Shown piece by piece: positions 36,052 through 57,000 of a stretch of 64,000 bases of DNA. Every line of letters starts with the position of its first letter. Positions within the stretch are counted from its first letter, which is position 1. The notes under the pieces were generated by a model. That model did no database searches. It had not been told where the DNA came from and saw nothing but the letters and a program-made list of their open reading frames with translations. The position numbers and the translations under genes were made by a program. Location: positions 496,001 to 560,000 of the forward strand of contig NZ_CP020919.1 in NCBI RefSeq assembly GCF_003076475.1, read 5' to 3'. Source of the DNA: Flavobacterium kingsejongi (GTDB lineage Bacteria > Bacteroidota > Bacteroidia > Flavobacteriales > Flavobacteriaceae).

Positions 36052-36561
36052 TTAGTCACAGTGATCAATGCACAATACATTGGCACCAATATAATCTTCA
36101 TACTTCCGTTCCAATTGCGTATCGTGTACAAGGATCATAATCTCTACCGATCCCGTCCCTACAGTGCCCTCCAAGATATGGCCACCAAAAGCATTGAAGT
36201 TTTTATCCGTCACCACACCATGTGCATGAACTGATACTTTCCCCTTCTGCCAGGCAATAGTCCCATTCATACTGGCTAATTCTACCTTTTTAAACATTTT
36301 GGGATCAAACTTGCGGGTTTCGAAGTTGAAGAACCCAAATTTCATATCCACAAAACCCATTCCGGTAAAGTTCGCGGCTGGTATTTTCTCCGCTTCTGCA
36401 AAAGCTTCCAGCTGGCTGATTATGTTGTCTCCCTGTAAAAGCACCATAAGGTAGCCCTGTGGCACTTTGACATACCGTTTGACAGTAGCATCAGGCCGTT
36501 GGGCCATTGCTGTCATCCCAAAAAATAAACTGAACAGTAGTGTAGCATAAAATCGCTTCAT
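36052..36561 (-). CDS. Exported PPC/DUF296 domain protein
   Basis: Encodes 169 residues. A signal peptide (cleavage near TAMAQ, residue 21) precedes a PPC (DUF296) domain: YLMVLLQGDNIISQLEAFAE, FTGMGFVDMKFGFFN, GTIAWQKGKVSVHAHGVV and GGHILEGTVG. Plant PPC domains are found with AT-hook DNA-binding proteins; bacterial ones are usually short and cytosolic. The His residues in VHAHG and GGHI match a metal-binding triad seen in some bacterial members. Export makes a DNA role unlikely. It is the last gene of the minus-strand redox run, 53 bp after the VOC gene. Confidence 0.8.
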   Translation of the reverse strand: MKRFYATLLFSLFFGMTAMAQRPDATVKRYVKVPQGYLMVLLQGDNIISQLEAFAEAEKIPAANFTGMGFVDMKFGFFNFETRKFDPKMFKKVELASMNGTIAWQKGKVSVHAHGVVTDKNFNAFGGHILEGTVGTGSVEIMILVHDTQLERKYEDYIGANVLCIDHCD

Positions 36562-36614
36562 AGAAAATGGATTAAGTACCGGAACAAAACAGTTTCGGTG
36601 GTTAGTAGTGCCGA

Positions 36615-37196
36615 TTAGTTACCGGTTCTTTTAAAAGGCCCCTGTGGAGCAATAATTTCGAGGTGCGTGCCATCCGGATCATCGAAGTAGGCTACGGCAG
36701 TTCCAAAACCCGCTTTGAGCCCATCTTCTTCCATAAAAGTAATCGGATCGCCCTGCAGCCTGATTCCTGCCTTACACAGTCGGGCGACGGCATCATCGAT
36801 ATTGTCTACTTCAAAACACAGGTGCATCGCACCGATTTGGTTGTTAGCATACTGTGCTTTCGAAGGTTCCGGTGCTTCATACTGCAGCAAATCGATGTTC
36901 AGGTTATCCAGGTGGATCGTCGCATAGCGAATCAGGGCTTTATCCAGCCCCAATACACCTGCCATCCGCTTGCCGCCTATTTTATCCTGAGGCGCTGCTT
37001 TCTTTCCGGTAAGGGCTTCATAGAACCGTATCGAAGCATCCAGGTTGGAGGTAACGATCCCCACGTGGTTTGCCCGGCTAAAGCCCATTGTTGCCAATGC
37101 TGTTGTATCGTTCATAACGGTCTTTTTTATCGTTTGTGCCTGGCCCAGCCCCACTGTCAAAAGCGTTGCTGCCAAAAGTAATGTACTTGCTTTCAT
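36615..37196 (-). CDS. Exported VOC (glyoxalase-fold) family protein
   Basis: Encodes 193 residues. The signal peptide (TVGLGQAQ, cleavage near residue 21) is followed by a vicinal-oxygen-chelate domain: RANHVGIVTSNLDASIRFYE at about 40-60, GAMHLCFEVDNIDDAVARL and YFDDPDGTHLEII. The His/Glu pattern fits a metal site. VOC enzymes include glyoxalase I, dioxygenases and resistance proteins; most are cytosolic, so export is unusual. Gaps of 3 bp to the aldo/keto reductase gene and 53 bp to the PPC gene place it in the LysR-linked operon. The substrate is unknown. Confidence 0.82.
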   Translation of the reverse strand: MKASTLLLAATLLTVGLGQAQTIKKTVMNDTTALATMGFSRANHVGIVTSNLDASIRFYEALTGKKAAPQDKIGGKRMAGVLGLDKALIRYATIHLDNLNIDLLQYEAPEPSKAQYANNQIGAMHLCFEVDNIDDAVARLCKAGIRLQGDPITFMEEDGLKAGFGTAVAYFDDPDGTHLEIIAPQGPFKRTGN

Positions 37197-37199
37197 CGC

Positions 37200-38183
37200 T
37201 TATAGTTTGGAGAGTGCCTCGTGGATAAAAGTAAGTTCTGCTGCTGAAATTGTCAGGTCCATGGCTTTGGCATTTTCAATCGCCTGTGCTGCATTTCGCG
37301 CTCCCGCCAACACCACCGTAATTCCGGGCTGCAGGCTGGTCCAGCGCAGTACCAACTGAGATAAGGATGCATTTTTAGCTTCCGCTATCGGAGCGATGGT
37401 ATCCAGGAATGTTTTTACCGCATTGGCTTCAAACTGCCCAAAGTACCCATTTCTATGATCGTCTGCTTTTAGTTTGGCCTCCTTAAAATATTTCCCGGTT
37501 AGCAATCCGCGTTCCATCGGGCTATAGGCAATAACCCCAATATTCTTATCGATAGTGTAAGGTACAATATCTTTTTCAATGCCCCGGTTCAGCATGCTAT
37601 ACGATACCTGCTCTGAAGCCAGTACCACTGTTTTTTCTGCGGCTTTCAGTTGTGACAGGTCATAGTTGCAAACACCCGCTGCCCTGATTTTGCCCTGTTC
37701 GATCAGCCGTTGCAACGCTTCCATCGTTTCATCAATGGGCGTTGTAGCATCCGGCCAATGGATCTGTAGCAAATCGATATAATCCGTACCCAGGCGTTTC
37801 AGGCTTTCTTCCAGCTCCTTAATGATATTCGCTTTGGATCCTAATTTGTACACCGGGTAATTACGGCCATCTTCTGTAGCGTCAAAGAAATACTCCCCTT
37901 TGCCGTTATTGCTTCCGTCCCATACCAGCCCGAACTTCGTCAACAGTTGGATTTTATCCCGGCTTCTGTCCCGGATCGCTTCCCCAATCAGTTCCTCGCT
38001 ACGACCCAGGCCATAAAACGGTGCAGTGTCTATTGAGGTCATGCCATGATCCAGTGCAGCATGTATGGCTTTAATCGAGTCTTCTTTTTCATTGCCGCCC
38101 CACATGGTACCCCCGATGGCAAAAGCACCATACGCGATTGCTGATACGTTGAGGTCAGATGTCCCTAATTTTCTATATTCCAT
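37200..38183 (-). CDS. Aldo/keto reductase
   Basis: An NADPH-dependent reductase of 327 residues with the TIM-barrel signatures: DTAPFYGLGRSEELIGEAI with catalytic Asp and Tyr, LLTKFGL with the Lys, LLQIHWPD with the His, and GVIAYSPMERGLLTGK. The layout and length fit the AKR11/AKR12-like group (YghZ/IolS relatives) acting on aldehydes and ketones. It is embedded in the run MdaB, monooxygenase, AKR, VOC with gaps of 2-3 bp, which argues for a shared role in removing reactive carbonyls or quinones. Confidence 0.92.
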   Translation of the reverse strand: MEYRKLGTSDLNVSAIAYGAFAIGGTMWGGNEKEDSIKAIHAALDHGMTSIDTAPFYGLGRSEELIGEAIRDRSRDKIQLLTKFGLVWDGSNNGKGEYFFDATEDGRNYPVYKLGSKANIIKELEESLKRLGTDYIDLLQIHWPDATTPIDETMEALQRLIEQGKIRAAGVCNYDLSQLKAAEKTVVLASEQVSYSMLNRGIEKDIVPYTIDKNIGVIAYSPMERGLLTGKYFKEAKLKADDHRNGYFGQFEANAVKTFLDTIAPIAEAKNASLSQLVLRWTSLQPGITVVLAGARNAAQAIENAKAMDLTISAAELTFIHEALSKL

Positions 38184-38186
38184 GTT

Positions 38187-38477
38187 TTATGCTATTAAAG
38201 TTGTTTTGTAAAGTTGTGCCGGTTGCGCCAGCAATGCCCCCGAACGGGCTATAAAATCCTGTATGTAAGGTTGTGCGTTGTGCTGCTCCAGTCCTGCTTC
38301 ATCTGCCCACAATTCGTGAAAGATAAATACGCGGGGATCTTCGCTGCTTTGGTACAGTTCATACTGCAGGCAGGCGGCTTCCTGTACCGATTGTTCCACC
38401 ATTCCGCTAAGAAGGGTTTTCAGTGCAGCGGTACTCTCTGTAGTACCGGTAACGATTGCTGTTAAATGTATGGCCAT
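38187..38477 (-). CDS. Antibiotic biosynthesis monooxygenase-fold protein (YgiN-like)
   Basis: A 96-residue protein of the ABM fold, a small dimeric beta barrel. It has HLTAIVTGTTESTAAL at the N-terminus and FIFHELWADEAGLEQHNAQP with the usual W and H residues. In Escherichia coli the relative YgiN is a quinol monooxygenase encoded next to the quinone reductase MdaB; here an MdaB-like gene is directly upstream with a 2 bp gap. A cofactor-free quinol oxidation role is inferred from that pairing. Confidence 0.85.
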   Translation of the reverse strand: MAIHLTAIVTGTTESTAALKTLLSGMVEQSVQEAACLQYELYQSSEDPRVFIFHELWADEAGLEQHNAQPYIQDFIARSGALLAQPAQLYKTTLIA

Positions 38478-38479
38478 GA

Positions 38480-39073
38480 TTATGCGATAAATGTTTTTGT
38501 TAAATGAGCTTTGTAGGATTCAATATCTCGTGCCACATCAGCATTCTTTTCAATATCATGAAAATGCATGCTTTCCAGAGGTTCCATTCCGGTAAAGGCG
38601 TTCATACGATGGAAACCAAATAATGGCCCTTCGTCTACCGACTTCTGGCTGAAAAATTCGCCCGGCAGGGTAAAGGCTTCTTTTGGCGCATTCCAGGAAG
38701 TGGTCAGCATGTACTTACGGCCATGCAGCATACCACCTGTCCCATAATTGACCGTAGGATTGGCAGCAGTACGCCCGTCACTATGATAGATTCCTTTGGC
38801 ATGCCCTTCGGTAAAGACCACATCAATGTATTTTTTAAAACCGTGGGGCAACTGGAACCACCATACCGGAGTATGATAGATGACCACATCGGCCCAAACG
38901 AATTTTTCGACTTCTTCTGCCGCAACATAATCACTGTTGATATCGGTTGTTTTTATTTCAAAGTCGGTATGCCCTTCAAAGAAGGAAAGTGTTTCCTGTG
39001 AAATGGTTTCGTTGAACCTTCCGCCGGAGTGGCCGAATTTCTGACCCCCATTAATGATGAATATCTTTGTCAT
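38480..39073 (-). CDS. MdaB-like NAD(P)H quinone oxidoreductase
   Basis: A flavodoxin-fold enzyme of 197 residues, started at the ATG at 39073 (MTKIFIINGGQKFGHSGG); the open frame upstream runs through the promoter. HTPVWWFQLPHGFKKYIDVV and HAKGIYHSDGR are close to MdaB (modulator of drug activity B) motifs for FAD binding and quinone reduction. Two-electron reduction of quinones avoids semiquinone radicals. It is the first gene of the minus-strand operon and diverges from the LysR gene over 100 bp. Confidence 0.88.
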   Translation of the reverse strand: MTKIFIINGGQKFGHSGGRFNETISQETLSFFEGHTDFEIKTTDINSDYVAAEEVEKFVWADVVIYHTPVWWFQLPHGFKKYIDVVFTEGHAKGIYHSDGRTAANPTVNYGTGGMLHGRKYMLTTSWNAPKEAFTLPGEFFSQKSVDEGPLFGFHRMNAFTGMEPLESMHFHDIEKNADVARDIESYKAHLTKTFIA

Positions 39074-39096
39074 TGTACTATTATTTTTTGATGGTA

Positions 39097-39104
39097 CAAA
39101 GTTA
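39097..39104 (-). promoter_or_regulatory. Candidate -7 element for the MdaB operon (TAACTTTG)
   Basis: On the minus strand this reads TAACTTTGTA, a TANNTTTG match 24 bp before the MdaB start. It is embedded in the palindrome GGTA-N6-TACC (39093-39106), a possible regulator contact. Confidence 0.4.
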
Positions 39105-39140
39105 CCGCGCCTTTTCCTATTATTAAAATAACTTAATTCA

Positions 39141-39148
39141 TACCTTTG
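39141..39148 (+). promoter_or_regulatory. Candidate -7 element for the LysR gene (TACCTTTG)
   Basis: The plus strand reads TACCTTTGTA, a TANNTTTG match 26 bp before the LysR ATG, within the small palindrome ATAC-CTTT-GTAT. It mirrors the opposing element at 39097-39104. Confidence 0.4.
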
Positions 39149-39173
39149 TATCATAATTATAATAGCTACAATC

Positions 39174-40133
39174 ATGGTAAATCTGGAATGGTACCGTACT
39201 TTTAAGGCGGTGTATAAATCGGGAACCCTTACGGGGGCAGCAGAAGTGCTGTTTATTTCACAGCCGGGTGTCAGCCTGCACCTGAGTTCCCTTGAGAATT
39301 ATGTAGGCTACAAGCTTTTCGACCGTACCGGAAGGAGGATGGTGCCTACCGAACGCGGAAAGGTGCTCTATAATTTTATCATAGAAGCGCTGACCAAACT
39401 CGAGGAAGCCGAAAAAAACTTCCAGCGCAGTACCGAAAAACATACGCCTACCATCAGTATCGGGATGTGCTTTGAAACATTCCAGATTACGCTCGAACCT
39501 TATATTGCTACCTTGCCGTTTAATGTCATCATTATGTTTGGTGAATACCCGGAGATGGTCGAAAACCTCGAAAAAGGGATACTCGATATCATCATTACCC
39601 CACAGATGGTTCCGCGCAATACGATTGAATACCAGCCTTTTTCTTCCGAAACCATTGTGCTGGTCGGTGGGAATGATACTGATGTAGCAGCTTTTGAGGC
39701 CGTTGTCCAGCAAGAGGATCGTACAGCCGTTGAAAACTGGCTGAAAGAACAAAAATGGTACGGGACTACAGGCGATATGGAACACCTGCGCCGTTTCTGG
39801 CAATTGAATTTCAACAAATACCCGGATTTCCGCCCGAATTATATTGTACCCAACCTCAACTCCATCGTCCGTTGCCTGGCCAGTGGGATTGGGCTTTCTG
39901 TAGTTCCGGATTTCCTCTGCCGCAAAGAAATCGAAAACGGCAGTATTCAACTCGTGTGGGAAGGCAGCCCGAAGTTGGAGAATACCCTTTATTTTGCGAC
40001 ACGCAAGAAAACCATTTACGAAGATGAAATTGCAAGTATCAAAACCATCTTTTTAAAAGTGATGACCGCCACACCATCCGAAAATCCGTTACACTCCAAC
40101 GGATTAACGAAAATGCCATCCGAAAGGGTATAA
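39174..40133 (+). CDS. LysR family transcriptional regulator
   Basis: A 319-residue regulator. The N-terminal winged HTH (about 1-60) reads LEWYRTFKAVYKSGTLTGAA and SQPGVSLHLSSLE, followed by the linker helix and a two-lobed effector domain (PTISIGMCFETFQITL to the end). It is transcribed away from the MdaB operon, the classic arrangement in which LysR controls its divergent neighbours and itself. The inducer is unknown; a quinone or electrophile fits the target genes. The C-terminal ~20 residues are polar and poorly conserved. Confidence 0.9.
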   Translation: MVNLEWYRTFKAVYKSGTLTGAAEVLFISQPGVSLHLSSLENYVGYKLFDRTGRRMVPTERGKVLYNFIIEALTKLEEAEKNFQRSTEKHTPTISIGMCFETFQITLEPYIATLPFNVIIMFGEYPEMVENLEKGILDIIITPQMVPRNTIEYQPFSSETIVLVGGNDTDVAAFEAVVQQEDRTAVENWLKEQKWYGTTGDMEHLRRFWQLNFNKYPDFRPNYIVPNLNSIVRCLASGIGLSVVPDFLCRKEIENGSIQLVWEGSPKLENTLYFATRKKTIYEDEIASIKTIFLKVMTATPSENPLHSNGLTKMPSERV

Positions 40134-40192: not shown

Positions 40193-41218
40193 TTATTTAA
40201 AAATAATTTGCAGCACGCGGATCATAATCCGGTTGATGGGATACACCAGTCCGTTCGCGCAATAAGCAATACTCAGTTCTTCTTCCGGGTAGTACCACAC
40301 CTGGGAAGCAAAACCATCTAAAGCACCGTGGTGCCCATGTCCGGGTTTACCGCAAAAACCAATCGGGTGGATGCCCATCCCGAAGGTATCCTTCTCCGTT
40401 AACAGGTACTCCAGTGTCTCCTGGGAAAAGAACTTTCCGGTGAACACGGCACGTATAAATAGCGTCAGGTCATAGGGTGATGCGACGACCGCTCCTGCAC
40501 CATGGGCGATATCCATACAGGTCGAATCTTCCACTACCCAGTCCTCCTGGAAAGTATAGGAATAACATTCGTTATGCTGAACGGCAATCTTGCCACCATA
40601 ATAGGTACTGTTGAGTTGTCCCCTATTACAGATCCGCTCTTTGATCAATTGTTTTAAAGACAGGCCGGTGACCCGTTCCGCTATAAATCCGAGGAAGATA
40701 TAATTGGAATTCGAATATACCGCCATTTGGTCCGGTTCAAAATCGGGAGTGCATTGTATGATCCGGTCGATGACCTGCTGTTGCGTCTTCGGCACAATAG
40801 ACCACGCCCTAAAGTTGGGTGTATCACTGATATCATGCAGCCCGCTCCTGTGGTGGAGCAGGTCACTGATCCGGATACGATCCCCGTTCGGGACACCCGG
40901 AATGTATTTGGACAGTACGGCATTGAGGTCCAAAAGGCCTTCTTCGTACAACTGAAAAATCAGGACGGCTGTAAAGGATTTTGAAATGGAACCTACCCGG
41001 TACCGTGTATATTGGTGTGCGGGGATTTTCCCGGTAGGAGTGGTAAACTTATACCCTACCGAATGCTGGTAGACAACAGTATCTTTTACAGCGATACAAA
41101 TGCTGCCCATCCCCATATTATTGTCATAAAGCGTATTGAAAAATGTGGCTAATGCTTCTTTAGCCAAGTCGGAAATGATAGATCCGGTTTCCGGTACCGG
41201 CTGGTTTTGATACTGCAT
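40193..41218 (-). CDS. Beta-lactamase-fold serine hydrolase
   Basis: A 341-residue protein of the class C beta-lactamase/D-aminopeptidase fold. S77-I-S-K80 is the nucleophile motif, Y168-S-N170 the second, and GHGHHGALDG near the C-terminus stands for the third (H/K-x-G). There is no signal peptide, so it is cytoplasmic and not a drug-resistance beta-lactamase; members of this fold include esterases, amidases and acyl transferases. It is the last gene of the six-gene amino-sugar-type operon, 12 bp after the HAD gene, and might deacylate or acylate the pathway product. That role is inferred from context only. Confidence 0.85.
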   Translation of the reverse strand: MQYQNQPVPETGSIISDLAKEALATFFNTLYDNNMGMGSICIAVKDTVVYQHSVGYKFTTPTGKIPAHQYTRYRVGSISKSFTAVLIFQLYEEGLLDLNAVLSKYIPGVPNGDRIRISDLLHHRSGLHDISDTPNFRAWSIVPKTQQQVIDRIIQCTPDFEPDQMAVYSNSNYIFLGFIAERVTGLSLKQLIKERICNRGQLNSTYYGGKIAVQHNECYSYTFQEDWVVEDSTCMDIAHGAGAVVASPYDLTLFIRAVFTGKFFSQETLEYLLTEKDTFGMGIHPIGFCGKPGHGHHGALDGFASQVWYYPEEELSIAYCANGLVYPINRIMIRVLQIIFK

Positions 41219-41230
41219 AACAGTGCTTTT

Positions 41231-42043
41231 TTAAAGGTTGTGATGTATTCGCTGCTGTAAGATTGCTGTCACAAAATTCCCCACCCCGTTATCATTATTG
41301 GAGGTGGTCATACAATCGGCTTTGGAGCGCACCAAGGCATTGGCATTGGCCATCGCGACCCCAATTCCCGATGCGACCAATAATTCAATATCATTCACAT
41401 CGTCCCCAAAGGCAACCACATGCGACATATCGAGCCCCAGGCTTCCGGTAATGTATTCCACAGCACTGCATTTTGAAATCAGGCGTGGCATGACCTGGAT
41501 GAATTTCCCTTCTTCGGTAATCAGCAACCGTTGGTCTTCCGTCAGGAGTGCTGTGATTTCATGGTGTGGAAAATTCCGGTCTTCGGCGATTACCGTGACC
41601 TTGTTTACCGCTTTCTCCAACAGTACTTCCAAAGGGTGGAGCTCCGCCTTAAAATCGGAATTTGGCTGCTTTTCGATACAGGGAGCATAAATGCGCCCAC
41701 CCGATTCTATAGAGAAAAAGTAGTGGCTGTAATCCGTATGGAGTTTGGTAATCAGCGGGGCTATGTGCAGCGCATCCATGGTGATATTAAAGAGTTCCTT
41801 CCCCTCTTTCTGCGCCGTTGTACCGTTGGAAAACACCCAATAGTCCTGGCAGAATGCCTCATATACTGGCTTCGGGATCATGCTGGCGGGACGGGCCGTA
41901 TTAAAAATAAGGTGCATGCCCAGCGCCCTGCATTCGTTTAAGGCGTCCACTGTAATAGGAGCCACTGTGCCGTCTGTTTGCAATAAAGTGCCATCAAGGT
42001 CGATGGACAGGACCTGTATATTCGTATAATTTTGAACTGTCAT
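41231..42043 (-). CDS. Cof-type HAD-IIB sugar phosphatase
   Basis: A 270-residue phosphatase of the haloacid dehalogenase superfamily, class IIB cap. Motif I is D15-L-D17-G-T-L, motif II lies in IFNTARP, the Lys in FIQVMPRLISKCSAV, and motif IV in VVAFGDDVNDIELLVASG. Cof-type enzymes act on sugar phosphates and small phosphoesters. It lies 1 bp from the upstream DegT gene. NtdB, the kanosamine 6-phosphate phosphatase of Bacillus subtilis, is also a Cof-like HAD protein of similar size (about 280 residues), and its partners NtdA and NtdC have family counterparts here. Confidence 0.92.
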   Translation of the reverse strand: MTVQNYTNIQVLSIDLDGTLLQTDGTVAPITVDALNECRALGMHLIFNTARPASMIPKPVYEAFCQDYWVFSNGTTAQKEGKELFNITMDALHIAPLITKLHTDYSHYFFSIESGGRIYAPCIEKQPNSDFKAELHPLEVLLEKAVNKVTVIAEDRNFPHHEITALLTEDQRLLITEEGKFIQVMPRLISKCSAVEYITGSLGLDMSHVVAFGDDVNDIELLVASGIGVAMANANALVRSKADCMTTSNNDNGVGNFVTAILQQRIHHNL

Positions 42044-42044
42044 A

Positions 42045-43082
42045 TCAGTAAGGATAATTATTGATTATAGTAGCCATTTGGGCTAACTGTTCCGGCGTAT
42101 ACCGCTGATGCACCGGGATTGTGGTGGTCGTTTCTAACAGATGTTCTGCATTCGGGCAGTCGGCACTGTATTTCCAGAGCACCGGATATTCATACAGCGG
42201 CCAGATATTGTATTTTTTCATATCCGATGGTATGCCCTCTTTTACGAGATAGCTGGCCAATGCAGCCCCACCCTGATCCGATTGCAGCAGCAGCCGTTGG
42301 TAACTCGGTATTGATCCCGGCACTACTTCCAGTTCGCGGACTGCCGGATGATCAATCTGTGCTATAATACTTTGGCTTTGTTGTGCCCGCAGGTTCAGAT
42401 TGTCCGGGAGTTCTGCCAGGGCTGATATACCCTTTTCCGCTAAATAGGGACTCAGCCTGTAGTTCACCCCAAAATCAATTCCGTTGAGGTTCCCCATCCG
42501 GCTGTAGGACAGCGCCCGCCGGTAATATGCTTCATTATCCGTCAACAGGAAACCACCCTCCCCGGTCGAAAACATCTTATTCTTCTGGGTGCTGAAACAG
42601 GCAATATCACAAAACTGCGACAAAGGTAATCCGTTATACTGTGTCCCGGCACAATGAGCCAGGTCAAAAATCAGGGGAATTTCCCTTTCGGCCGCCCAAA
42701 GTTCAATCGCTTCCGCCGGGATGCCATACCCCCACATGGGGACTTCCACTATCGCTTTGGTCTTTCGGGTAAGCGAATGCTGTAATCCGGCGATATCCAG
42801 GCCAAAGTGGGTCCGGCAGCAATCCGAAAAAACCAGTTCAGCCCCGGTGGAAAGAATGGGAAACGCAGTACACAATGGTGCTGCGGCCGAAGTAATCACT
42901 TCATCCCCGGACTGGATCCCTACTGCCTGCAAGGCAACAATAATGGCCGCCGTACCCGAGGTGAGCGAAACACAATAGGCTGCATTAAAATATTTTTTGA
43001 GCGCATTTTCATAGTCGGTTACCGACGCGCTGTGGTCCAGGGCATCCATACCCGGAAACAATACAAAATCGGTGATGTCCAT
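42045..43082 (-). CDS. DegT/DnrJ/EryC1/StrS-type aminotransferase (second copy)
   Basis: A PLP-dependent sugar aminotransferase of 345 residues. The cofactor site is intact: SLTSGTAAI for phosphate, FDLAHCAGT with the Asp that holds the pyridine nitrogen, and K169 in FSTQKNKMFSTGEGG as the Schiff-base lysine. It lacks the first ~25 residues found in its paralogue at 44606-45727. The two share an unusual VPMWGY motif and a C-terminal CPNAE, so they came from one duplication or one specialised subfamily. The gaps to its neighbours are 1 bp on both sides. Confidence 0.9.
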   Translation of the reverse strand: MDITDFVLFPGMDALDHSASVTDYENALKKYFNAAYCVSLTSGTAAIIVALQAVGIQSGDEVITSAAAPLCTAFPILSTGAELVFSDCCRTHFGLDIAGLQHSLTRKTKAIVEVPMWGYGIPAEAIELWAAEREIPLIFDLAHCAGTQYNGLPLSQFCDIACFSTQKNKMFSTGEGGFLLTDNEAYYRRALSYSRMGNLNGIDFGVNYRLSPYLAEKGISALAELPDNLNLRAQQSQSIIAQIDHPAVRELEVVPGSIPSYQRLLLQSDQGGAALASYLVKEGIPSDMKKYNIWPLYEYPVLWKYSADCPNAEHLLETTTTIPVHQRYTPEQLAQMATIINNYPY

Positions 43083-43083
43083 C

Positions 43084-44127
43084 TTATAATAGTGTTGAAT
43101 GTTCTACTTCGGTTTTGAGCCGGCTGGATTTGTAATCCATGCCTTTCTGGATATCTTCCATCGCTTCATAGACCTTAATCATATCCGTCAGGGCATGTTC
43201 ATAGGGCGTGTCGTGCAATACATGTTCAAAGAAGATATTCAGTTCCGTTTCATATCCGGCTTTCGAATACCCACTTTTCAACGGACTGGGCGTGTAGACC
43301 GTTACGCATTGTTTCGCTTTGAGGTCAAAGGGCGCAATGGCATTATTACCCGTGGTAATTTCAATATTGGCAAGGTCATCAATCCGTACCGTATTCCCCT
43401 GGTCGCTGATCATTTCCACCTGGTGGCGAAAGCGCGGATAATAGGAACCACTTTTCAGGCAACCGATGATCCCGTTTTCAAATTCGATCATGATCTGGAG
43501 CACCAGCGGATAGTCATTTTTAGAAAAGTGAACATCCAGCGTTTTATATTTCCCCCCAATCGAGAGGATGTAATCCAGCGGATGGATGAGTTGTGCCAGC
43601 AAGAAAGATTCTATCGTAGAGTCAAGGTTCCATAACGGTTCTTTGGGTTTGCTGCTAATGTGCTCAATAAGGACAAAGGACAGCGCACCAAAATCGGCAT
43701 TGCAAATCACGTTTTTCAATATCTCATGCGAATCCGTATAGCTGAAATTCATACCTACTCCCGTTTTGATGCCCTGTGCGGCTGCGATCCCTACGAGGTC
43801 ATTCAGCTGTTCCAGATTTCGCGTCGGCGGTTTTTCAATGAATACATGGATTCCATTTTGCATCGCATGTTTCGCTACCGCATAATGGATATCGGGATAG
43901 GAAGAGATCACGATCACATCGATATTTTCGGTCGCAATCATCACTTCATACGAGGTATACTGCTGGAACACCCCAAATTTATGTTCAAAAGCGTCCAGTG
44001 CCTTTTGCGAAACATCACAGATCGCTACAATCTTGGTGTACTGGCTGATGGAAATCGGGACAAACAAATTATCACACATTTGCTCGCCTAACCCGACCAC
44101 CGCGATTCTTAGTTTTTTAGATTTCAT
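43084..44127 (-). CDS. Gfo/Idh/MocA family NAD(P)-dependent dehydrogenase
   Basis: A 347-residue oxidoreductase acting on sugars or cyclitols. The N-terminal Rossmann domain has IAVVGLGEQM (the third Gly of the usual G-x-G-x-x-G is replaced) and continues to FIEKPPTRNLEQL, the E-K-P motif with the catalytic Lys. The C-terminal domain begins GVGMNFSYTDSHEI and carries LIHPLDYILSIGG with the conserved His. NtdC of Bacillus subtilis, glucose-6-phosphate 3-dehydrogenase, belongs to this family and is about 350 residues. The start overlaps the NUDIX stop by 4 bp, indicating translational coupling. Confidence 0.92.
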   Translation of the reverse strand: MKSKKLRIAVVGLGEQMCDNLFVPISISQYTKIVAICDVSQKALDAFEHKFGVFQQYTSYEVMIATENIDVIVISSYPDIHYAVAKHAMQNGIHVFIEKPPTRNLEQLNDLVGIAAAQGIKTGVGMNFSYTDSHEILKNVICNADFGALSFVLIEHISSKPKEPLWNLDSTIESFLLAQLIHPLDYILSIGGKYKTLDVHFSKNDYPLVLQIMIEFENGIIGCLKSGSYYPRFRHQVEMISDQGNTVRIDDLANIEITTGNNAIAPFDLKAKQCVTVYTPSPLKSGYSKAGYETELNIFFEHVLHDTPYEHALTDMIKVYEAMEDIQKGMDYKSSRLKTEVEHSTLL

Positions 44128-44606
44128 AATTGCTTTGGGGTGTTACATAGTTTATTATACGTATCGGTAATGGTGCTTCGGGTGCCTTCAAAGGTGTTGA
44201 CCGTCGCAATGTCGGCTATGGGTACCCATCGTACAGCTTTAGTCTCGGCAGCATTCAGGGTCAGTTCCCCTCCGATGGCTGTACCGATATAGGTCATGTC
44301 GATATGGTAATGGGCCGCCTCTTTTGAAGAAGCCGGTATCAGTTGCTGGTAGAGGTATTCGGGAGGCAGCAAACATTCCGCATCCGAAACCGGGTGCAGC
44401 TGGTGAAGGAAGGAAACCAGCCGGATCCCTATTCCCGTTTCTTCCAGCACTTCCCGTATGGCGGCTTCATTGGGATTTTCAACCGGTTCCACGTGGCCGC
44501 CCGGTACCATCCAGCGGTCAAACTTCCGGTGGTGGATCAATAATACATCGGTATCCTGCGCTAAAGTGCGGAATACGATTACACTAACAGTAGGTTGTTT
44601 TTTCAT
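44124..44606 (-). CDS. NUDIX hydrolase
   Basis: A 160-residue pyrophosphohydrolase. The full Nudix box G-x5-E-x7-R-E-U-x-E-E-x-G-U is seen from G37 to I59 (with E43, R51-E52, E55-E56, G58). The family cleaves nucleoside diphosphates linked to another group. It is translationally coupled on both sides: a 1-bp overlap with the first aminotransferase and a 4-bp overlap with the dehydrogenase. Context suggests housecleaning of, or a step on, a nucleotide-linked intermediate, but no NDP-sugar genes are in the operon. The substrate is unknown. Confidence 0.92.
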   Translation of the reverse strand: MKKQPTVSVIVFRTLAQDTDVLLIHHRKFDRWMVPGGHVEPVENPNEAAIREVLEETGIGIRLVSFLHQLHPVSDAECLLPPEYLYQQLIPASSKEAAHYHIDMTYIGTAIGGELTLNAAETKAVRWVPIADIATVNTFEGTRSTITDTYNKLCNTPKQL

Positions 44607-45727
44607 CAGGTGCTGTAGATTATATTTAAAAACAGGTCCAGTTCTTCTTTGCTAAGCCCTTCATGAACCGGAAGGGAAAATATCGTGGGAATCAGGGCTT
44701 CCGCATTCGGGCAGGACGAGGCATAAGGCGCGAACAGTGGCATCTTATACAAAGGCTGGTACTGGTACCGGAGCGGATCGGAAATGATATTGGATTGCCG
44801 TAATGCCTCTTCTATCCGGGCACGGCGGGCGATAGAAGTCTTGCAAACAATCGAATAATAATTGTCTTCGGAGGGCATGCCATTGGTAATTTCCCGGATA
44901 TCATCCGTATACTGGTGGAGCTGTTCGGCCAGGTAACGCCCATGTTCCTGGCGCACTTTGATCTTGGCGGGTAATTTTTGCAGTTGCGTACTGCCTAAGG
45001 CGGCATTAATCGCACTCATCTTAAAGTTAAGCCCGGAGAAAAAACCATAAGCTCCTTGTACATTTCGGTATTCCGGATCGGTCCGGCACACTTCCCCAAA
45101 AGAGCGGAGCTCCATCAGGCGGTTGTAATCGGCCAGGGCCCGAATCAGGAAAAAAGCCCCTTCCCCGGTGGTGACCAGTTTTCGTTCATGGGTGCTAAAA
45201 ATAGCATAATCCCCAAAGGAACCTAAGTAACTATCTTTCAGTCGGGTGCCGTGGCAATGGGAATTGTCTTCCAGTACTTTGATGCCTTTGGCGCGGCAAA
45301 TATCCGAAATACGATCTACATTATTCGCATAGCCCCACATGGGGACATTGATCAGCAGCCGGGTTTTATCGGAGATTTTCTGTTGCAGGTCCGTCACGCA
45401 GACATTGAAATTCCCGGGTTCATTATCGACAAATACGGGAGTGGCTCCGGCATTCAATATCGGTAATATCGTCATCACCGGGGCCGTTGGCGGCAGGAGC
45501 ACTTCGTCTCCGGGACCAATATCCTCCAGGAGCAGGATCATATAAATCCCCATAGTGGCATTGCTGCAGCACAAGGTATGGGGAACCTTAAAAAAATGGG
45601 CCAGATCCTGTTCAAACTGCTTTACAGCCGGGCCTTTGCCCGAAATACTGTCGGCCGTCAATGCAGCGACCACACTTTCAATATCCTCTTGCTCAATGTT
45701 GACATGGCAATTGTCGTACTTCTTCAT
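44606..45727 (-). CDS. DegT/DnrJ/EryC1/StrS-type aminotransferase (first copy)
   Basis: First gene of the six-gene operon, 373 residues when started at the ATG at 45727 (MKKYDNCHVNIEQEDIESVV), where the family fold begins. A frame open 62 codons further upstream crosses hairpins and has no family support. PLP contacts are intact: CCSNATMG, EDNSHCHGT and K183 in FSTHERKLVTTGEG. It shares VPMWGY and SSCPNAEAL with the second copy. DegT enzymes aminate keto-sugars or cyclitols using glutamate or glutamine. NtdA of the kanosamine route is of this family but longer (about 440 residues). Confidence 0.9.
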   Translation of the reverse strand: MKKYDNCHVNIEQEDIESVVAALTADSISGKGPAVKQFEQDLAHFFKVPHTLCCSNATMGIYMILLLEDIGPGDEVLLPPTAPVMTILPILNAGATPVFVDNEPGNFNVCVTDLQQKISDKTRLLINVPMWGYANNVDRISDICRAKGIKVLEDNSHCHGTRLKDSYLGSFGDYAIFSTHERKLVTTGEGAFFLIRALADYNRLMELRSFGEVCRTDPEYRNVQGAYGFFSGLNFKMSAINAALGSTQLQKLPAKIKVRQEHGRYLAEQLHQYTDDIREITNGMPSEDNYYSIVCKTSIARRARIEEALRQSNIISDPLRYQYQPLYKMPLFAPYASSCPNAEALIPTIFSLPVHEGLSKEELDLFLNIIYST

Positions 45728-48048: not shown

Positions 48049-51000
48049 TTAAGGTGTCACATACAAATAACCCGAACGTTCTACCGTACCACCGTGGGGT
48101 GTTTCATATTTCAGGATATAGAAATAAGTTCCTGCAGGCACGACCTCCCCTTTGCTAATGGTACCTTTTCCTTCGGAAATACCGCGGAATACATTACCAT
48201 TCGTATGGTATCCATTCGTATGGTAAATACGGGCACCATACCGGTTAAAGATTTCAACGGAATTGTTTGGATAGCGTTCCAGCCCTTCAATATTGAAATA
48301 ATCATTTTGCCCGTCACCATTAGGGGACAGCCCGTTGTATATCACAATACCGGAAACGGTAATCGTCGCTTCATCACGGTTGTTATCCGGATTCGGGTCT
48401 TCCGGGAACGAACTTTCAAGGTAGGCTACATTCAGGTAGTCTCCGGATCCCTTCACGATTGCCGTCACTTTTAAGGTCAGTGTTTCCCCACCTTCCAGTT
48501 GTGCAATAGTCCACAATCCGGTTAGGGGATTATAACTGCCACCCGTTGTAAAGGCTTGTACAAAAGTGTACCCATCCGGCAGGGTTTCGTTAATGACCAC
48601 ATCGGTAAAGGCTACCGTACCCAAGTTGGTCGCTGCAATAGTAAAGACCACTGTATCCCCTACTGCTACGGTACTGCTGGCATCTACCGTTTTGGTGATG
48701 GCAATATCTCCGCAAAGGGTGATCGTTACCCCAAAGGTGATCTCAACAATCGGGTCACAGTTGGCTGCATTGATATAAGCTACGCTCACCGTTCCCGCAC
48801 CTGCTGTTATCCATTGTACGGTAACATAATTATCCGTCAGTTGACCACCGCTAAGGATAGTCCCGCCACTTATGAACCAAACGTAATCGGACATTCCGGC
48901 CACAGTTGTGTAGGTCACCGTTTCTAAGACACAGGCCTCCGGGTTCCAGCCGGAAGTATCGCCCGGCAAATCGGTTCTTAGAACCGCCGTTACTTCCAGG
49001 CGTATTTCACTTTCGCAACCCGATACCAAATCCGATTCGGTGGCATAATACACCGTTCCATCCGTTAGCAGCTGATTCAATGGAAGCGGATTGCCTCCCG
49101 TTGGTGTAGCATACCAATTGAAGTTGGTTGCATTGACCTGCAGGTCTGCTACCGTTGGATTATCAATCCCACAGAATGACTGTATGGGATCATTTGTAGT
49201 CGGTGTAGGCACATGGGCTACCGTCAGTGTGATGGGTTTGCCCGTGTACGGATCGTTGATGCACACATCATAACCCGATACCGCGATATAATAGGTTACC
49301 GTTGTCGCTGGTGCTACACTATAGGTCGCACCGGTATGGACCAATTGGGTTAATTCAGGATCACTATACCAGGTATACACAGGGCTCACTACAGTACCAC
49401 TCGCGGTCAGGAGTACGGTGTCACCCGTACAGACATAACGGTCGGCAATTGTAATATCGGCCGCTGTGGCTTTTCTGTTTACTGTAACCGTTGCCGTTTG
49501 GGCAGTACCCGGCGTATTTTCACAATAGCCGTCTCCCGCTACCGTAACATAATATGCAGTTGTCACCACCGGGCTCACGGTAAGCTGTGCTCCCGTACCC
49601 AATACTGTCATCAGATTGCTATCGGCATACCAGGTAAATACCGGATTCGGCACCAGGGTACTGGCTGTTAAAACAGCGGTTTCATCCACACAGATCGTTA
49701 CCGGATCCACCCCGATCAGGGCAGCCCAGGCAGCAGGGGTTAGCGTAACCATCACGGCCAAACGTTGGGTACTTTCACAACCACCTGCAGTCTGTGAGGC
49801 ATAATAGGTTGCCCCCTGAACTACTACCGTTGCAGGGTCTAAAGCTACTCCACCCGTAGCCGAAGCATACCATTGTATCGCATCACCGGTAGCAACCAGG
49901 TTGGCGACTGTAGGTATTGTTGCCGTGCAAAAAGATTGTGTAGTAGCACCTGTTGGTGGTGCCGCATCGTTTAAGATCACGGTTATCGCCAAACGCACTG
50001 AGCTTTCACAACCGCTCGCATCGGTTAGCGAAGCATAATAAATACCACCATCCGTTAAGGCTGTTGTTGGAGGAAGAATAGTTCCGCCTGTTGGCAAATT
50101 ATACCACGTTACATTCGTTTCATTCACCTGTAAATTGGCCACTGTTGGCACGTTGATCACACAGAATTCCTGCGTCAAATCTGGAGTCGTTGGTGTCGGC
50201 GCATCGTTTAAGATGACGGTTATCGCCAAGCGTATCGAACTTTCACAACCGCTCGCATCGGTTAGCGAAGCATAATAAATAGCGCCATCCGTTAAGGCTG
50301 TGGTTGGAGGCACAATAGTTCCGCCGGTTGAAGCAGTATACCACGTTACATTCGTTTCATTCACCTGTAAATTAGCCACTGTTGGCACATTGATCACACA
50401 GAATTCCTGCGTAGGGTCTGGAGTCGTTGGCGTTGCCGCATCATTTAAGATCACGGTTATCGCCAAGCGTACCGAACTTTCACAACCGCTCGCATCGGTT
50501 AGCGAAGCATAATAAATGCCACCATCCGTTAAGGCTGTTGTTGGAGCGATAATGGTTCCGCCTGTTGGCAAATCATACCACGTAACATTCGTTTCATTCA
50601 CCTGCAGATCGGCTACCGTTGGCGTGTTGATCACACAGAATTCCTGCGTCAAATCAGTAGTCGTTGGTGTCGGCGCATCGTTTAAGATGACGGTTATCGC
50701 CAAGCGTACCGAACTTTCACAACCGCTCGCATCGGTTAGCGAAGCATAATAAATACCACCATCCGTTAAGGCTGTTGTTGGAGGAACAATGGTTCCGCCT
50801 GTTGGCAAATCATACCACGTAATATTCGTTTCATTCACCTGCAGATCGGCTACCGTTGGCGCGTTGATCACACAAAATTCCTGCGTAGGGTCTGGAGTCG
50901 TTGGCGTTGCCGCATCGTTTAAGATTACAGTTATCGCCAAACGTACCGAACTCGCACAGCCATTAGCATCCGTCAGCGAAGCATAATAGATACCACCATC

Positions 51001-54000
51001 GGTTAAGGCTGTGGTTGGAGGCACAATAGTTCCGCCTGTTGGCAAATTATACCACGTAACATTCGTTTCATTCACCTGTAGATCCGCTACTGTTGGTGCA
51101 TTGATCACACAGAATTCCTGCGTCAAATCAGTAGTTGTTGGTGTGGCCGCATCGTTTAAGATGACGGTTATCGCCAAGCGTACCGAGCTTGCACAACCGC
51201 TCGCATCCGTAAGCGAAGCATAATAAATAGCGCCATCCGTTAAGGCTGTGGTTGGAGGCAAAATAGTTCCGCCTGTTGGCAAATTATACCACGTAACATT
51301 CGTTTCATTCACCTGTAAATTGGCTACTGTTGGCGCATTGATCACACAGAATTCCTGCGTCAAATCTGGAGTCGTTGGCGTTGCCGCATCATTTAAGATT
51401 ACAGTTATCGCCAAACGTACCGAACTCGCACAGCCATTAGCATCCGTCAGCGAAGCATAATAGATACCGCCATCCGTTAAGGCTGTTGTTGGAGGAACAA
51501 TGGTTCCGCCTGTTGGCAAATCATACCACGTAATATTCGTTTCGTTCACCTGCAGATCCGCTACTGTTGGTGCATTGATCACACAGAATTCTTGCGTCAA
51601 ATCAGTAGTCGTTGGTGTCGGCGCATCGTTTAAGATGACGGTTATCGCCAAGCGTACCGAGCTTGCACAACCGCTCGCATCCGTAAGCGAAGCATAATAA
51701 ATAGCGCCATCCGTTAAGGCTGTGGTTGGAGGCAAAATAGTTCCGCCTGTTGGCAAATTATACCACGTAACATTCGTTTCATTCACCTGTAAATTGGCTA
51801 CTGTTGGCGCATTGATCACACAGAATTCCTGCGTCAAATCTGGAGTCGTTGGCGTTGCCGCATCATTTAAGATCACGGTTATCGCCAAGCGTACTGAGCT
51901 TGCACAGCCGTTAGCATCCGTCAGCGAAGCATAATAAATGCCATTATCCGTTAACGCTGTTGTTAGAGGCACAATGGTACCGCCAGTCAAAGCATCATAC
52001 CACGTAACATTCGTTTCATTCACCTGCAGATCCGCTACCGTTGGCGCATTGATCACACAGAATTCCTGCGTAGGGTCGGTAGTCGTTGGCGTTGCTGCAT
52101 CGTTTAAGATCACGGTTATCACCAAGCGTACCGAACTTTCACAACCGTTAGCATCCGTCAGCGAAGCATAATAAATGCCAGCGTCCGTTAACGCCGTAGT
52201 TGGAGCGATAATGGTACCGCCTGTTGGCAAATCATACCACGTAACATTCGTTTCATTCACCTGTAAATTGGCTACCGTTGGCGCGTTGATCACACAGAAT
52301 TCCTGTGTGGTGTCAGTAGTCGTTGGCGTTGCCGCATCATTTAAGATCACGGTTATCGCCAAACGTACCGAACTCGCACAGCCGCTCGCATCCGTCAGCG
52401 AAGCATAATAGATACCAGCATCGGTTAAAGCTGTAGTTGGAGGCACAATGGTACCGCCTGTTGGCAAATCATACCACGTAACATTCGTTTCATTCACCTG
52501 TAGATCCGCTACTGTTGGCGCGTTGATCACACAGAATTCCTGCGTGGTGTCTGGAGTCGTTGGCGTTGCCGCATCATTTAAGATCACGGTTATCGCCAAG
52601 CGTACCGAACTTTCACAACCGCTCGCATCGGTTAGCGAAGCATAATAAATACCACCATCCGTTAAGGCTGTTGTTGGAGCGATAATGGTTCCGCCTGTTG
52701 GCAAATCATACCACGTAACATTCGTTTCATTCACTTGCAGATCCGCTACCGTTGGTCCGTTGATCACACAGAATTCCTGCGTGGTGTCTGCAGTCGTTGG
52801 TGTTGCCGCATCGTTTAAGATGACGGTTATCGCCAAACGTACCGAACTTTCACAGCCATTAGCATCCGTCAGTGACGCATAATAGATACCACCATCCGTT
52901 AAGGCTGTTGTTGGAGGAACAATGGTTCCGCCTGTTGGCAAATCATACCACGTAATATTCGTTTCATTCACCTGCAGATCGGCTACCGTTGGCGCGTTGA
53001 TCACACAAAATTCCTGCGTAGTGTCTGTAGTCGTTGGCGTTGCCGCATCGTTTAATATTACTTCAATATCCAGGCGCACCGTACTTTCACAACCGCCAAC
53101 ATCCGTCAGGGCAGCAAAATAATGCCCGCCATCGGCTAACGCTGTCGTTACCGGCAGGCTATTCCCTGCGGTAGCAGCATCATACCATACAATAGTAGTT
53201 TGATCGACCTGTAAGTCGGCTATTGTTGGGGCATTGATCACACAGAATTCCTGGATCGGGTCTCCGGTCGTAGGTGTGGCAATATCGGTGACATTGACGG
53301 TCACGTCTTTTCCGGTATTCGGTTCGTTTTCACAATAACCATCACCCAAAACTGTCGCATAATACGTTGTGGCTGCTATTGGGCTTACCGTTAAAGTAGC
53401 TCCTGTAGGATCACTGCCATCCGCTGGTATTTCCAGGGTCAGGGCAGGATCGCTGTACCATTTAAAAATCGCATTTGGAATCGCACTGCTCGCTACCAAA
53501 GTAGTTGCAGTCCCGCGGCAAATACTTGCCCCGGAAGCGGTAATATCCGCAGCAACCGCATACGGTTTTACGTTGACCACAAGCTCAAAAGCGCGCCCTG
53601 GAATATTTTCGCAAAGGCTTGCAACGGTATCCTGTACCGTCACAAAGAAACTGGTGGTCGTCAGGATAGGTGGTGTCGTATAATCGGGTCCGGTATGCAG
53701 TAGGAAAGCCAACGTATTGTCGGTATACCATTTGAATTTCGGACTGGTTACAAAGTTGGAGCGTACACTCAGGTCGGCCGATGCACCATAACATACCGGT
53801 GGCACAGGATCGGACTGGATCATCGTTTCATTAGCCGTAGGAATGATGTAGACCTGAATGTAAGTACGTCCCGAGCTTTCACAACCGCCTATGGTCTGAG
53901 AGGCATAGTATATACGCTGATTTACTGCTGCCGTAGGATCCAATGGCGTGCCACCCGTACTGGTGCTATAGAATAACACATTGGTACCCGTGACCACAAT

Positions 54001-57000
54001 ATCGCCTATCGTAAATCCATAGCCACTGCAAAAACGTTGTGGGCTGACGGCCGTTGGTGCTGGTGTATCGGTTAAGATCACTTCAATATCCAGGCGCACG
54101 GTACTTTCACAACCGCTAACATCCGTCAGGGCAGCAAAATAATGCCCGCCATCGGCTAACACTGTCGTTACCGGCAGGCTATTCCCTGCGGTAGCAGCAT
54201 CATACCATACAATATTCGTTTGGTTCACCTGTAAGTCGGCTATGGTTGCGGCACTAACCACACAGAATTCCTGCGTAGGATCGCCTGTTGTAGGTGTCGC
54301 AATATCATGGACCGTAATGGTCAGCACTTTGGCATTAGACGGTTTGGACTCGCAATAACTTGGACCGGAAGTCGTAATATAATAGGTAGTCGTTGCAGTA
54401 AGTACCGGAGTGGTAAAAATCGCAGGATTGCTATGGGCCGTAAATTCTGCTATTTTATTGGCCGGATCCAGGTCGGCAGTAGTATATACCCTTGTAGTCG
54501 GCACTATTATTGCGGAATCTATTGTAATAGGCACCGAAGCTGTCGTACCGCTACAAATGGCCTGATCGGCTGCTGTAATAGCATTGGCATCAGGATTTCG
54601 CATATAAACCCGGACTACTGTTTTCGTCTGGCTGCTGTTTAGCGCTTCACATTTGTTGTCGCCCGCTACTGTAACGATCCATTGTTTGGTTATCGTCGCA
54701 GGATCGGGAGGTGTAAATTCCGGTCCGGTATGCAGCAAGGCACCCCCAATCCCAAATTCATACCAACGGAAAACCGGGTTGATTACCGTAGTACTGGAAG
54801 CACTGAACGTACCATATTCGCCATCACAGACGTAGATAGGTGTCTCTTGAATATCAATATCCGTAAAGTTTTCTGCCAGCGGCTTAAAGTTAGCCACCAC
54901 CTGCAGTCGGTTTACGCTTTCACAGCCTGTCAGCAGTTGTGCTGCATAATAGGGCGTGCCATCCGTTAAAAGGGTGGTGTCCGGAAGCAGATTCCCTCCA
55001 ACAGCGGCATCATACCACACCACATTCGTTGGCGAAGTCACTAAATCGGCTACTGTAGGTGCGTCTGCCGCACAAAACAACTGTGGGCTTGCCCCTGTAG
55101 GTAATCCTGGTGCCGCAGTAAGCGAAGCGCGTACCGCAAGGCGGGCCGTACTTTCGCAGCCCGTCACAGGATCCGTTTGGGACGCATAATAAAAATTAGT
55201 ATCGACCAAAGCCGTCGCAGGATCCAATAAGGTTCCTCCTACATTGGCCGTATACCACTGAATGTTGTTTCCAGTTGCCAACAGTTGGGCTACAGTGGGT
55301 GCGGCAGCAGCACAAAAAGTTTGTGTAGTAGCTCCTGTTGGTGCTCCCGGTAGTGGGATCACCGTTACGGTATGCGTTCCCGCGACACTACCGTTACATC
55401 CGGTAGCGGTAGCGGTAATCACAGCTTCCCCGGAAAAGGCAGTATTCCAGCGAATGGTGGCACCATTTACCAAGCTGGTAATGGTGCCGGCAGATGCGGG
55501 TGTTATCGTATAGTTATTTCCAACGGGAACTTCATTATTGCCTACCGCATAGTACAACTGGGTCGCTCCCGCACAAATGGATGAGGTAGCCCCTAAATCA
55601 AAAGCCACACTATCCACCCGTGCGCGCACCGTTATTACCGTGCTTGCGGTAGAGTTGACACCATCACAACCGTATACCGTTCCGGTCACTGTTGCCGGGC
55701 CATAATAATCCGGATTCCAGGTGATTTCTCCCGGTGATTCCAAGCCATAAGGTGGAAAATCCTCAAATGGCAATGTGGCTATCGTACCCGCTTCCGGTGG
55801 AGTCATGGAATAAATAATAGTTCCACCCCTCCTACTTGTTACACCATACATCATGGAAGTTACCGTACCCTGGCAAACAGAGCTGATAGGGGTAGGAGCC
55901 GATGGGCCTCTTCCTTTCAGATAAATAGTATCTGCTTTTCGCTGTTTGTTTATAATATGTGTCGCACTTATAGGTCCATTACAACCCATCACGGTAGCTG
56001 TTACCGTCACTTCTCCACCTGGAAACCAATAATTTCCGACGGTACTACCGTAGGTTGCCCATACAATAGTTCCCGTTGTGCTAACAATATCACCTATTCC
56101 ATTTCCAGTAGGTGACATTGTATAAGTAATCGTACGGCCATAGGGGTCTACGGCAGTATAAGGTTGTGCCAGAGGAACCGGATCTCCACAAATTTCAGAA
56201 GTGGGTCCCAGGTCAAATACCGGAACGGCCGCAGGATCAATCACGGTTACCGTATGTACGGCATTCGTTGGCCCATTACAGCCTGCTGCTTCCGCAGTAA
56301 TTGTAGCGGTACCCGAGAATCCAATTTCCCAACTCACTAATCCCGTTGCCGGATCGATGATCCCGGCTACGGATGGCGTAAGGTTATAAGTCATTCCGGT
56401 ACTGTTGGCTGCGGTAGCAGTATAGGTTTCCGTAGCACCTGCACAAACACTGGAAGTAGCCCCCAGTGCAAAAACAGGTGTAGTCACATCCGGCGTAAGC
56501 TGTACCTGTACGGCCAGTCGTGTGGCACTTTCACAACCCGTTCCCGAATCGATCAGCGCCCCATAATAGGTCGTGGTATCAACCAATAGTGTCGTTCCCG
56601 GAAGCGATGCTCCTCCGGTGTCGTTACTAAACCAAACCACATTCGGTTCGGTAGTGACCAAATCGGAAACTGTAGCGCCTGTACAAAATGTTTGTGTTGC
56701 GGCTCCCGTAGGAGGCGCAACCAGTGGACTTACCGTAATGGTTACTACTTTGGCGGTGGCAGGCGTGTTTTCACATACCCCATCACCTTGTATCGTTACA
56801 TAATATGCTGTGTTATCCGTTAAGAGTGGTGTCCCAAAATAAGCCGTAGTGGATACTACAGTACTTAATGTTGGGTCACTATACCAGGTATAAACCGGGT
56901 TGGTTACTGTAGTTGTATTGGCAATCATTTCCAGCCCGATACCGGAGCATACCGTATGATCAAAAACCTGGGTAATATCTGCAGCGGTAGCGGTACGGTT

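Follow-up and report, generated by a model that had tools for sequence, protein, structure and literature searches.

A six-gene operon of Flavobacterium kingsejongi with a cross-phylum core cassette and a putative aminonucleoside-type enzyme set

A compact operon in Flavobacterium kingsejongi

A 64,000-nucleotide stretch of the Flavobacterium kingsejongi genome (contig NZ_CP020919.1, positions 496,001 to 560,000; this whole stretch is called the window here, and its own numbering is used) carries on its minus strand, at 40193-45727, six open reading frames (ORFs) that encode, in order, an aminotransferase (AT1), a NUDIX hydrolase, a Gfo/Idh/MocA dehydrogenase, a second aminotransferase (AT2), a Cof-type HAD phosphatase and a beta-lactamase-fold hydrolase. 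This six-gene unit is a real, compact biosynthetic operon, and the firmest new points that emerge from its study are that its core cassette occurs in several phyla, that two sequence signatures mark the cassette, and that the crystal structure 3m2t can be placed with its dehydrogenases. With about as much belief as doubt, we interpret the product as an amino-deoxynucleoside or a close derivative, which would be made by the logic of the puromycin and 3'-amino-3'-deoxyguanosine (ADG) pathways.

The first gene, AT1 (44606..45727; 373 amino acids), is a DegT/DnrJ/EryC1 aminotransferase with an MWGY motif, and its ATG start at 45727 is nested in a longer ORF with a TTG start. It overlaps by 1 bp the NUDIX hydrolase gene (44124..44606; 160 amino acids, canonical box), which overlaps by 4 bp the dehydrogenase gene (43084..44127; 347 amino acids). 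These are followed by AT2, also a DegT enzyme with an MWGY motif (42045..43082; 345 amino acids), the Cof-type (HAD-IIB) phosphatase (41231..42043; 270 amino acids) and a serine beta-lactamase-fold (S12-like) hydrolase or acyltransferase (40193..41218; 341 amino acids), and the five junctions in gene order are -1, -4, +1, +1 and +12 bp. The initial annotation had described just such a row of minus-strand genes, with junctions ranging between a 4-bp overlap and a 12-bp gap, and its six family assignments also stand, as every gene has a Pfam match (DegT 1.5e-69 and 1.6e-50, NUDIX 2e-19, GFO_IDH_MocA 3e-22, Hydrolase_3 2.8e-42, Beta-lactamase 2.1e-45) and the motifs are intact: the Nudix box (residue 37), the HAD DLDGT and GDDVND, the hydrolase SISK, YSN and HHG, and the dehydrogenase EKP. 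The invariant lysine is present by alignment in both aminotransferases (FSTHERK and FSTQKNK), and inspection of the hydrolase N-terminus by eye revealed no apparent signal peptide. As that annotation also stated, none of the six genes encodes a sugar nucleotidyltransferase or glycosyltransferase; nor is there among them an inositol-phosphate synthase, a Pur6-like synthetase or a methyltransferase. The operon's GC content is 48.3%, against 44.6% for the window, which hints weakly at acquisition from elsewhere; the host genome consists of a single 4.22-Mb contig.

The dehydrogenase clade and the genes linked to it

Seven loci were readable: the window and a congener locus, L101 (both Bacteroidota), Pantoea (L006), Mycetohabitans (L007), Rhizobium (L008), Kitasatospora (L094) and an actinomycete (L103). 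Their dehydrogenases form one clade with Protein Data Bank entry 3m2t from Chromobacterium violaceum (8 rows, support 99/98), within which Kitasatospora is a long branch. The active-site motif is AQxIH in 7 clade members (AQAIH in 3m2t) and AQGVH in Kitasatospora. In sequence searches 3m2t outscores every other solved structure by a wide margin (178.6 bits, the next 58.6; in a second search 435.3, the next 89.8), and it is also nearest by fold to a dehydrogenase model built from three sequences (mean predicted local distance difference test score 75.6). After it in the fold search come inositol dehydrogenases, biliverdin reductase, GenD2 and KanD2, and UDP (uridine diphosphate)-GlcNAc 3-dehydrogenases, intermixed; since these relatives are of mixed function, the fold search does not settle the dehydrogenase substrate.

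The lysine (of EKP) and the histidine are invariant in a six-row dehydrogenase alignment. Inositol dehydrogenases have a Lys-Asp-His catalytic triad, and in the clade its Asp is replaced by Ala: at the position four residues ahead of the active-site His, 8/8 members have Ala and the myo-inositol dehydrogenase 3cea has Asp. For controls we used 80 generic dehydrogenase loci, the best 80 of 418 relatives in an all-species contig scan with the dehydrogenase alignment (both patterns of the scan were so common that generic dehydrogenases came up), and this Ala occurs in 1 of the 47 controls that could be read there (33 of the 80 could not). The substitution bears on an aminocyclitol pathway, in which an inositol would be oxidised and transaminated, perhaps twice. 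Such a pathway would account for the presence of two aminotransferases, and it finds an echo among the fold relatives, where two aminoglycoside enzymes, GenD2 and KanD2, occur with inositol dehydrogenases, and in the 2-deoxy-scyllo-inosose aminotransferase that ranks 4th among AT1's solved relatives. However, besides the lost Asp, the dehydrogenase scores 76.7 bits with the inositol 2-dehydrogenase equivalog, whose cut-off is 355, and the operon lacks an inositol-phosphate synthase, so that we consider this pathway improbable. The initial annotation had expected a free amino sugar or aminocyclitol and not a surface glycan; the enzyme set does fit a free (dephosphorylated) amino compound, but the aminocyclitol part of that expectation is disfavored.

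By profile, a dehydrogenase, a DegT aminotransferase and a NUDIX gene occur together at 7/7 clade loci and at 0/80 controls, in which an aminotransferase gene was found at 25 loci and a NUDIX gene at 1; these control counts are lower bounds, since the control loci are 3.8-17.5 kb long and some stop at contig ends. The profiles were trained partly on loci that they later scored, and the NUDIX and HAD calls rest also on record annotation and Pfam. A HAD gene is present at all seven loci (by record annotation, Pfam and, for L101, BLAST to the window protein), a count made for the clade loci only. The type of HAD protein varies, as the window copy is Cof-type and that of L101 similar, and the two other copies tested with Pfam (L007 and L103) best match HAD_2.

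Several candidate loci were set aside. Microvirga (H104) scored 149.5 bits, against at least 393 for the clade members, which also trained that profile. Neorhizobium (L096) has neither the WGY motif nor, by profile, a NUDIX gene, Priestia (L095) is annotated as sugar catabolism, and Shinella and Rhizobium sp. Q54 (26% identity) adjoin sugar-phosphate isomerase genes.

The aminotransferase signature

The second signature is a WGY motif, MWGY (10) or LWGY (1), in all 11 cassette-type aminotransferases, that of Rhodococcus included, at a place where many others have LYG. It is missing from a set of 30 further DegT proteins (27 encoded at control loci, 3 in the host genome), which form a separate group with support 91/99, a value under the tool's star level, and a third Pantoea aminotransferase (pan_ATb) also lacks it. 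AT2 clusters with both Mycetohabitans enzymes, Pantoea ATc and the Rhodococcus enzyme (99/97), apart from AT1. The Rhodococcus locus (L089) is not one of the seven, as it has the WGY aminotransferase but no clade dehydrogenase and, by profile, no NUDIX gene; there, on Rhodococcus opacus plasmid pCP135 (L089 6826-9008), the LWGY aminotransferase adjoins a zinc-binding alcohol dehydrogenase in place of the Gfo enzyme.

Could these be ordinary surface-glycan or lipopolysaccharide sugar genes? DegT and Gfo genes are often neighbors, as the 25 of 80 generic loci with a DegT gene illustrate. Yet the NUDIX linkage and the natural-product-like context in relatives (below) argue otherwise, and the three other strong DegT proteins of the host genome belong to the generic group and do not have the motif (three weak partial matches were outside that comparison); we regard this explanation as very improbable.

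The initial annotation had likened the operon to NtdC-NtdA-NtdB, and a kanosamine-type route from glucose 6-phosphate would make the NUDIX gene incidental. NtdB is a Cof-type phosphatase, as is the window enzyme. NtdA (4k2b, 4k2i) is mid-ranking among the solved relatives of AT2 (32-33/56), but its ranks for AT1 (50-51/57) and for the family profile (47-48/58) are low, so a close NtdA relative was not found. The accessible part of PMC8788734 does describe the same broad set for NtdCAB, a dehydrogenase, an aminotransferase and a phosphatase, so the analogy holds at the level of enzyme types; it is weakened by the NtdA ranks and by a NUDIX gene that accompanies the dehydrogenase clade at 7/7 readable loci, which together leave the kanosamine route with little probability.

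A congener locus with a smaller gene set

Among 299 congeneric genomes, a dehydrogenase profile search matched two, the host and G1036, and the locus in the latter is L101. Its gene order is adenylyltransferase-family protein, AT1, NUDIX, dehydrogenase, HAD, hexapeptide-repeat protein and MATE exporter; adjacent ORFs overlap or sit at most 6 bp apart, and the locus has a GC content of 25.8% against 32.0% in its flanks. Identities between window and L101 proteins are 53% (AT1), 51% (NUDIX), 49% (dehydrogenase) and 34% (HAD). One congener of 298 keeps AT1-NUDIX-Gfo-HAD in order, so that the outcome which the initial annotation had named as speaking against it, a gene order without parallel in any relative, did not occur, and because four of the six genes recur in this way we take the operon to be more than a chance assembly.

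L101 has neither AT2 nor the beta-lactamase-fold gene, so AT1-NUDIX-Gfo-HAD may suffice as the core and AT2 is probably outside it. The different tailoring genes around the same core in turn suggest that several products are built on it. The MATE exporter, hexapeptide-repeat and adenylyltransferase-family genes give L101 a natural-product-like context. The last of these matches Pfam 'Streptomycin adenylyltransferase' (2e-19), but it scores only 51.9 bits with the ANT(6) equivalog (cut-off 450) and a sequence search found no solved relative, so that drug modification by this protein is a guess. Two other searches, both at E up to 1e-40, found the host alone: one used AT2 and covered 60 relatives, the other used the dehydrogenase and covered 395 genomes from the phylum. 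The wide genome searches (those of 299 and 395 genomes and, below, of 394 and 369) scored at most 5-7 candidates per genome.

Cassette loci in other bacteria

Protein searches of plasmids with three family dehydrogenases retrieved four Mycetohabitans records (one of which, L007, was read), Pantoea ananatis, Rhizobium sp. BT04, Kitasatospora and four weaker records that were set aside. The actinomycete L103 was the 1 match among 394 genomes, and smaller scans (1/6 and 1/35) retrieved the same genome; scans aimed at Photorhabdus and Streptomyces gave 0/369 genomes, and 0/50 with an Enterobacterales marker. The best plasmid matches of AT2 are the Mycetohabitans (44-45%) and Pantoea (34%) clusters, and those of AT1 are the same clusters (36-37%). 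With the beta-lactamase-fold query 29 plasmid records matched, and no cassette plasmid was among the 12 listed; nor did this gene turn up beside the cassette at any other locus that was read. The Cof-type HAD query matched 2 plasmid records, neither of them a cassette plasmid.

The Pantoea ananatis (L006 9444-20503) and Mycetohabitans (L007 9992-20632) clusters continue from the cassette into genes for a flavin adenine dinucleotide oxidoreductase, a HAD protein, a desaturase, a methylthioadenosine phosphorylase, a substrate-binding protein and an MFS protein. The Pantoea phosphorylase scores above its family cut-off, and the Pantoea desaturase is GntB-like but far under the cut-off. A literature search that covered few subscription papers found no published description of either cluster. 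The Kitasatospora cluster (L094 7939-22441) combines the cassette with glycosyltransferases, a deacetylase and an aminoglycoside-phosphotransferase-family gene, and the actinomycete cluster (L103 237-12444) has glycosyltransferases, a PIG-L deacetylase, a radical-SAM protein and a gene of the same phosphotransferase family; these two are possibly aminoglycoside-like. Glycosyltransferase genes are near the Rhizobium cassette as well. In Rhizobium, Mycetohabitans and L103 the order is dehydrogenase, aminotransferase, NUDIX.

A putative aminonucleoside route

Pur4 is a DegT-family and Pur10 a Gfo-family enzyme. The accessible parts of PMC11641026 attribute the nucleoside moieties of puromycin, cystocin and A201A to pur10 (dehydrogenase), pur4 (aminotransferase), pur7 (NUDIX) and pur3 (phosphatase), and those of PMC9239236 give the same set as adgB-E for ADG and report that adgB-E in E. 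coli yielded a compound that matched ADG in mass and retention time. The operon encodes this set (dehydrogenase, DegT aminotransferase, NUDIX and phosphatase) together, and that is the first reason why we favor an aminonucleoside product; the others are the 7/7 versus 0/80 linkage of dehydrogenase, aminotransferase and NUDIX, the congener's core with its natural-product-like context, the lack of sugar nucleotidyltransferase and glycosyltransferase genes in the operon, and the methylthioadenosine (nucleoside) phosphorylase gene in the Pantoea and Mycetohabitans clusters. Puromycin-type logic also explains the NUDIX gene, which has no place in the kanosamine analogy.

In such a route, the Gfo dehydrogenase would act on a purine nucleotide and oxidise one of its ribose hydroxyls to a ketone, AT1 would convert the ketone to an amine, the NUDIX enzyme would take off the pyrophosphate part, and the HAD phosphatase would remove the last phosphate. 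AT2 might install a second amino group or act as the partner of AT1, and the beta-lactamase-fold enzyme might tailor or deprotect the amine, a role that the hexapeptide-repeat protein may have in the congener.

A number of points weigh against this interpretation. Kinship to Pur10, Pur4, Pur7 and AdgB-E was judged from the description of enzyme sets, and we stop short of classing the operon among the puromycin-type clusters. The window phosphatase is a Cof-type HAD protein and Pur3 probably belongs to a different phosphatase family, puromycin-type clusters are not known to have a second DegT enzyme, and the operon contains no exporter gene. The solved aminotransferase relatives with a named function act, by their titles, on nucleotide sugars or scyllo-inosose. 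The Pantoea and Rhizobium NUDIX boxes deviate from the canonical form, and a loose Nudix-box pattern sought anywhere in the locus missed these two and was present at 5/7 clade loci and 2/80 controls. The cassette is not always one tight operon, as the Kitasatospora NUDIX and one HAD gene are ~8 kb downstream of the dehydrogenase, the L103 HAD gene is ~7 kb distant and the Rhizobium HAD gene is on the opposite strand. Finally, the glycosyltransferase, deacetylase and phosphotransferase genes in relatives fit aminoglycoside-like products too.

Some of these points lend weight to the nearest rival, a nucleotide-sugar route in which the dehydrogenase would produce a 3-keto UDP-sugar, AT1 would aminate it, the NUDIX enzyme would release a sugar 1-phosphate and the HAD phosphatase a free amino sugar, much like RifL-RifK-RifM with an added NUDIX step. 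WbpE, perosamine synthase and AHBA synthase are among the solved aminotransferase relatives, UDP-GlcNAc 3-dehydrogenases are, alongside inositol dehydrogenases, fold relatives of the dehydrogenase model, three relatives have glycosyltransferases by the cassette and two have deacetylases, with phosphotransferase genes as well, and the rif pathway begins at UDP-glucose according to the accessible part of PMC8788734. We nevertheless judge this route unlikely, although less so than the other alternatives, since none of the six genes is for a nucleotidyltransferase or glycosyltransferase and since it is for aminonucleosides that the portions available of PMC9239236 and PMC11641026 describe the complete four-enzyme set, NUDIX included.

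If the aminonucleoside interpretation is correct, the operon is a variant of a known pathway type in a Bacteroidete. Related sets occur in very different bacteria. Pur-like genes outside actinomycetes are already published, as the accessible text of PMC4070871 describes two Bradyrhizobium strains with pur10, pur4 and pur5, one of them also with a putative pur7. A broader proposal, which we put forward only tentatively and hold to be somewhat doubtful, is that the WGY-aminotransferase, AQx(I/V)H-dehydrogenase, NUDIX and HAD enzymes constitute an undescribed natural-product pathway family, horizontally spread over Bacteroidota, Proteobacteria and Actinomycetota, with 3m2t a dehydrogenase of this family and a diamino-nucleoside or diamino-sugar antimicrobial as the product of the window operon. 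Aminonucleosides such as ADG and puromycin block RNA or protein synthesis (PMC9239236, as far as accessible). The four-enzyme cassette and its two signatures would allow such pathways to be recognised without recourse to their large tailoring genes, Bacteroidota included, and would give a likely context to the orphan structure 3m2t.

Surroundings of the operon

Redox-type genes (PCC domain, glyoxalase, aldo/keto reductase, ABM monooxygenase and flavodoxin-fold) occupy 36052-40133 and are probably unrelated to the operon; a convergent LysR regulator beside them stops 59 bp short of the last gene of the operon. At 48049-60633 (minus strand) is a 4194-amino acid ORF with many near-identical repeats and an 'NGDGQNDYF'-type C-terminus, presumably similar to Bacteroidete surface or gliding proteins. 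Two opposed Mutator-family transposase ORFs are at 14674-15885 (minus) and 16053-16769 (plus), the second of which spans just model positions 165-379.

Comparison with known systems

The ADG operon adgA-E of Photorhabdus luminescens is similar in being a compact dehydrogenase, aminotransferase, NUDIX and phosphatase set for a free amino compound in a non-actinomycete, and its first three of these by gene letter are dehydrogenase, aminotransferase and NUDIX, the order noted above for Rhizobium, Mycetohabitans and L103. By description it differs from the window operon, which has two aminotransferases, a Cof-type HAD protein, a beta-lactamase-fold enzyme and no MFS exporter. The puromycin (pur), cystocin (cst) and A201A (ata) cores share, again by description, the pur10/pur4/pur7/pur3 enzyme set, but the window operon is without a Pur6-like synthetase or methyltransferase. 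The RifL/RifK/RifM route to UDP-kanosamine has enzyme families in common with the operon, and AHBA synthase ranks 28-29/58 among solved relatives by the aminotransferase profile. The NtdCAB/KabCAB kanosamine operon shares the dehydrogenase, aminotransferase and phosphatase; it differs in that NUDIX is in the core of the window cassette and in that NtdA is a distant relative of the window aminotransferases. The structure 3m2t of C. violaceum is like the window dehydrogenase in both its clade and its AQAIH motif.

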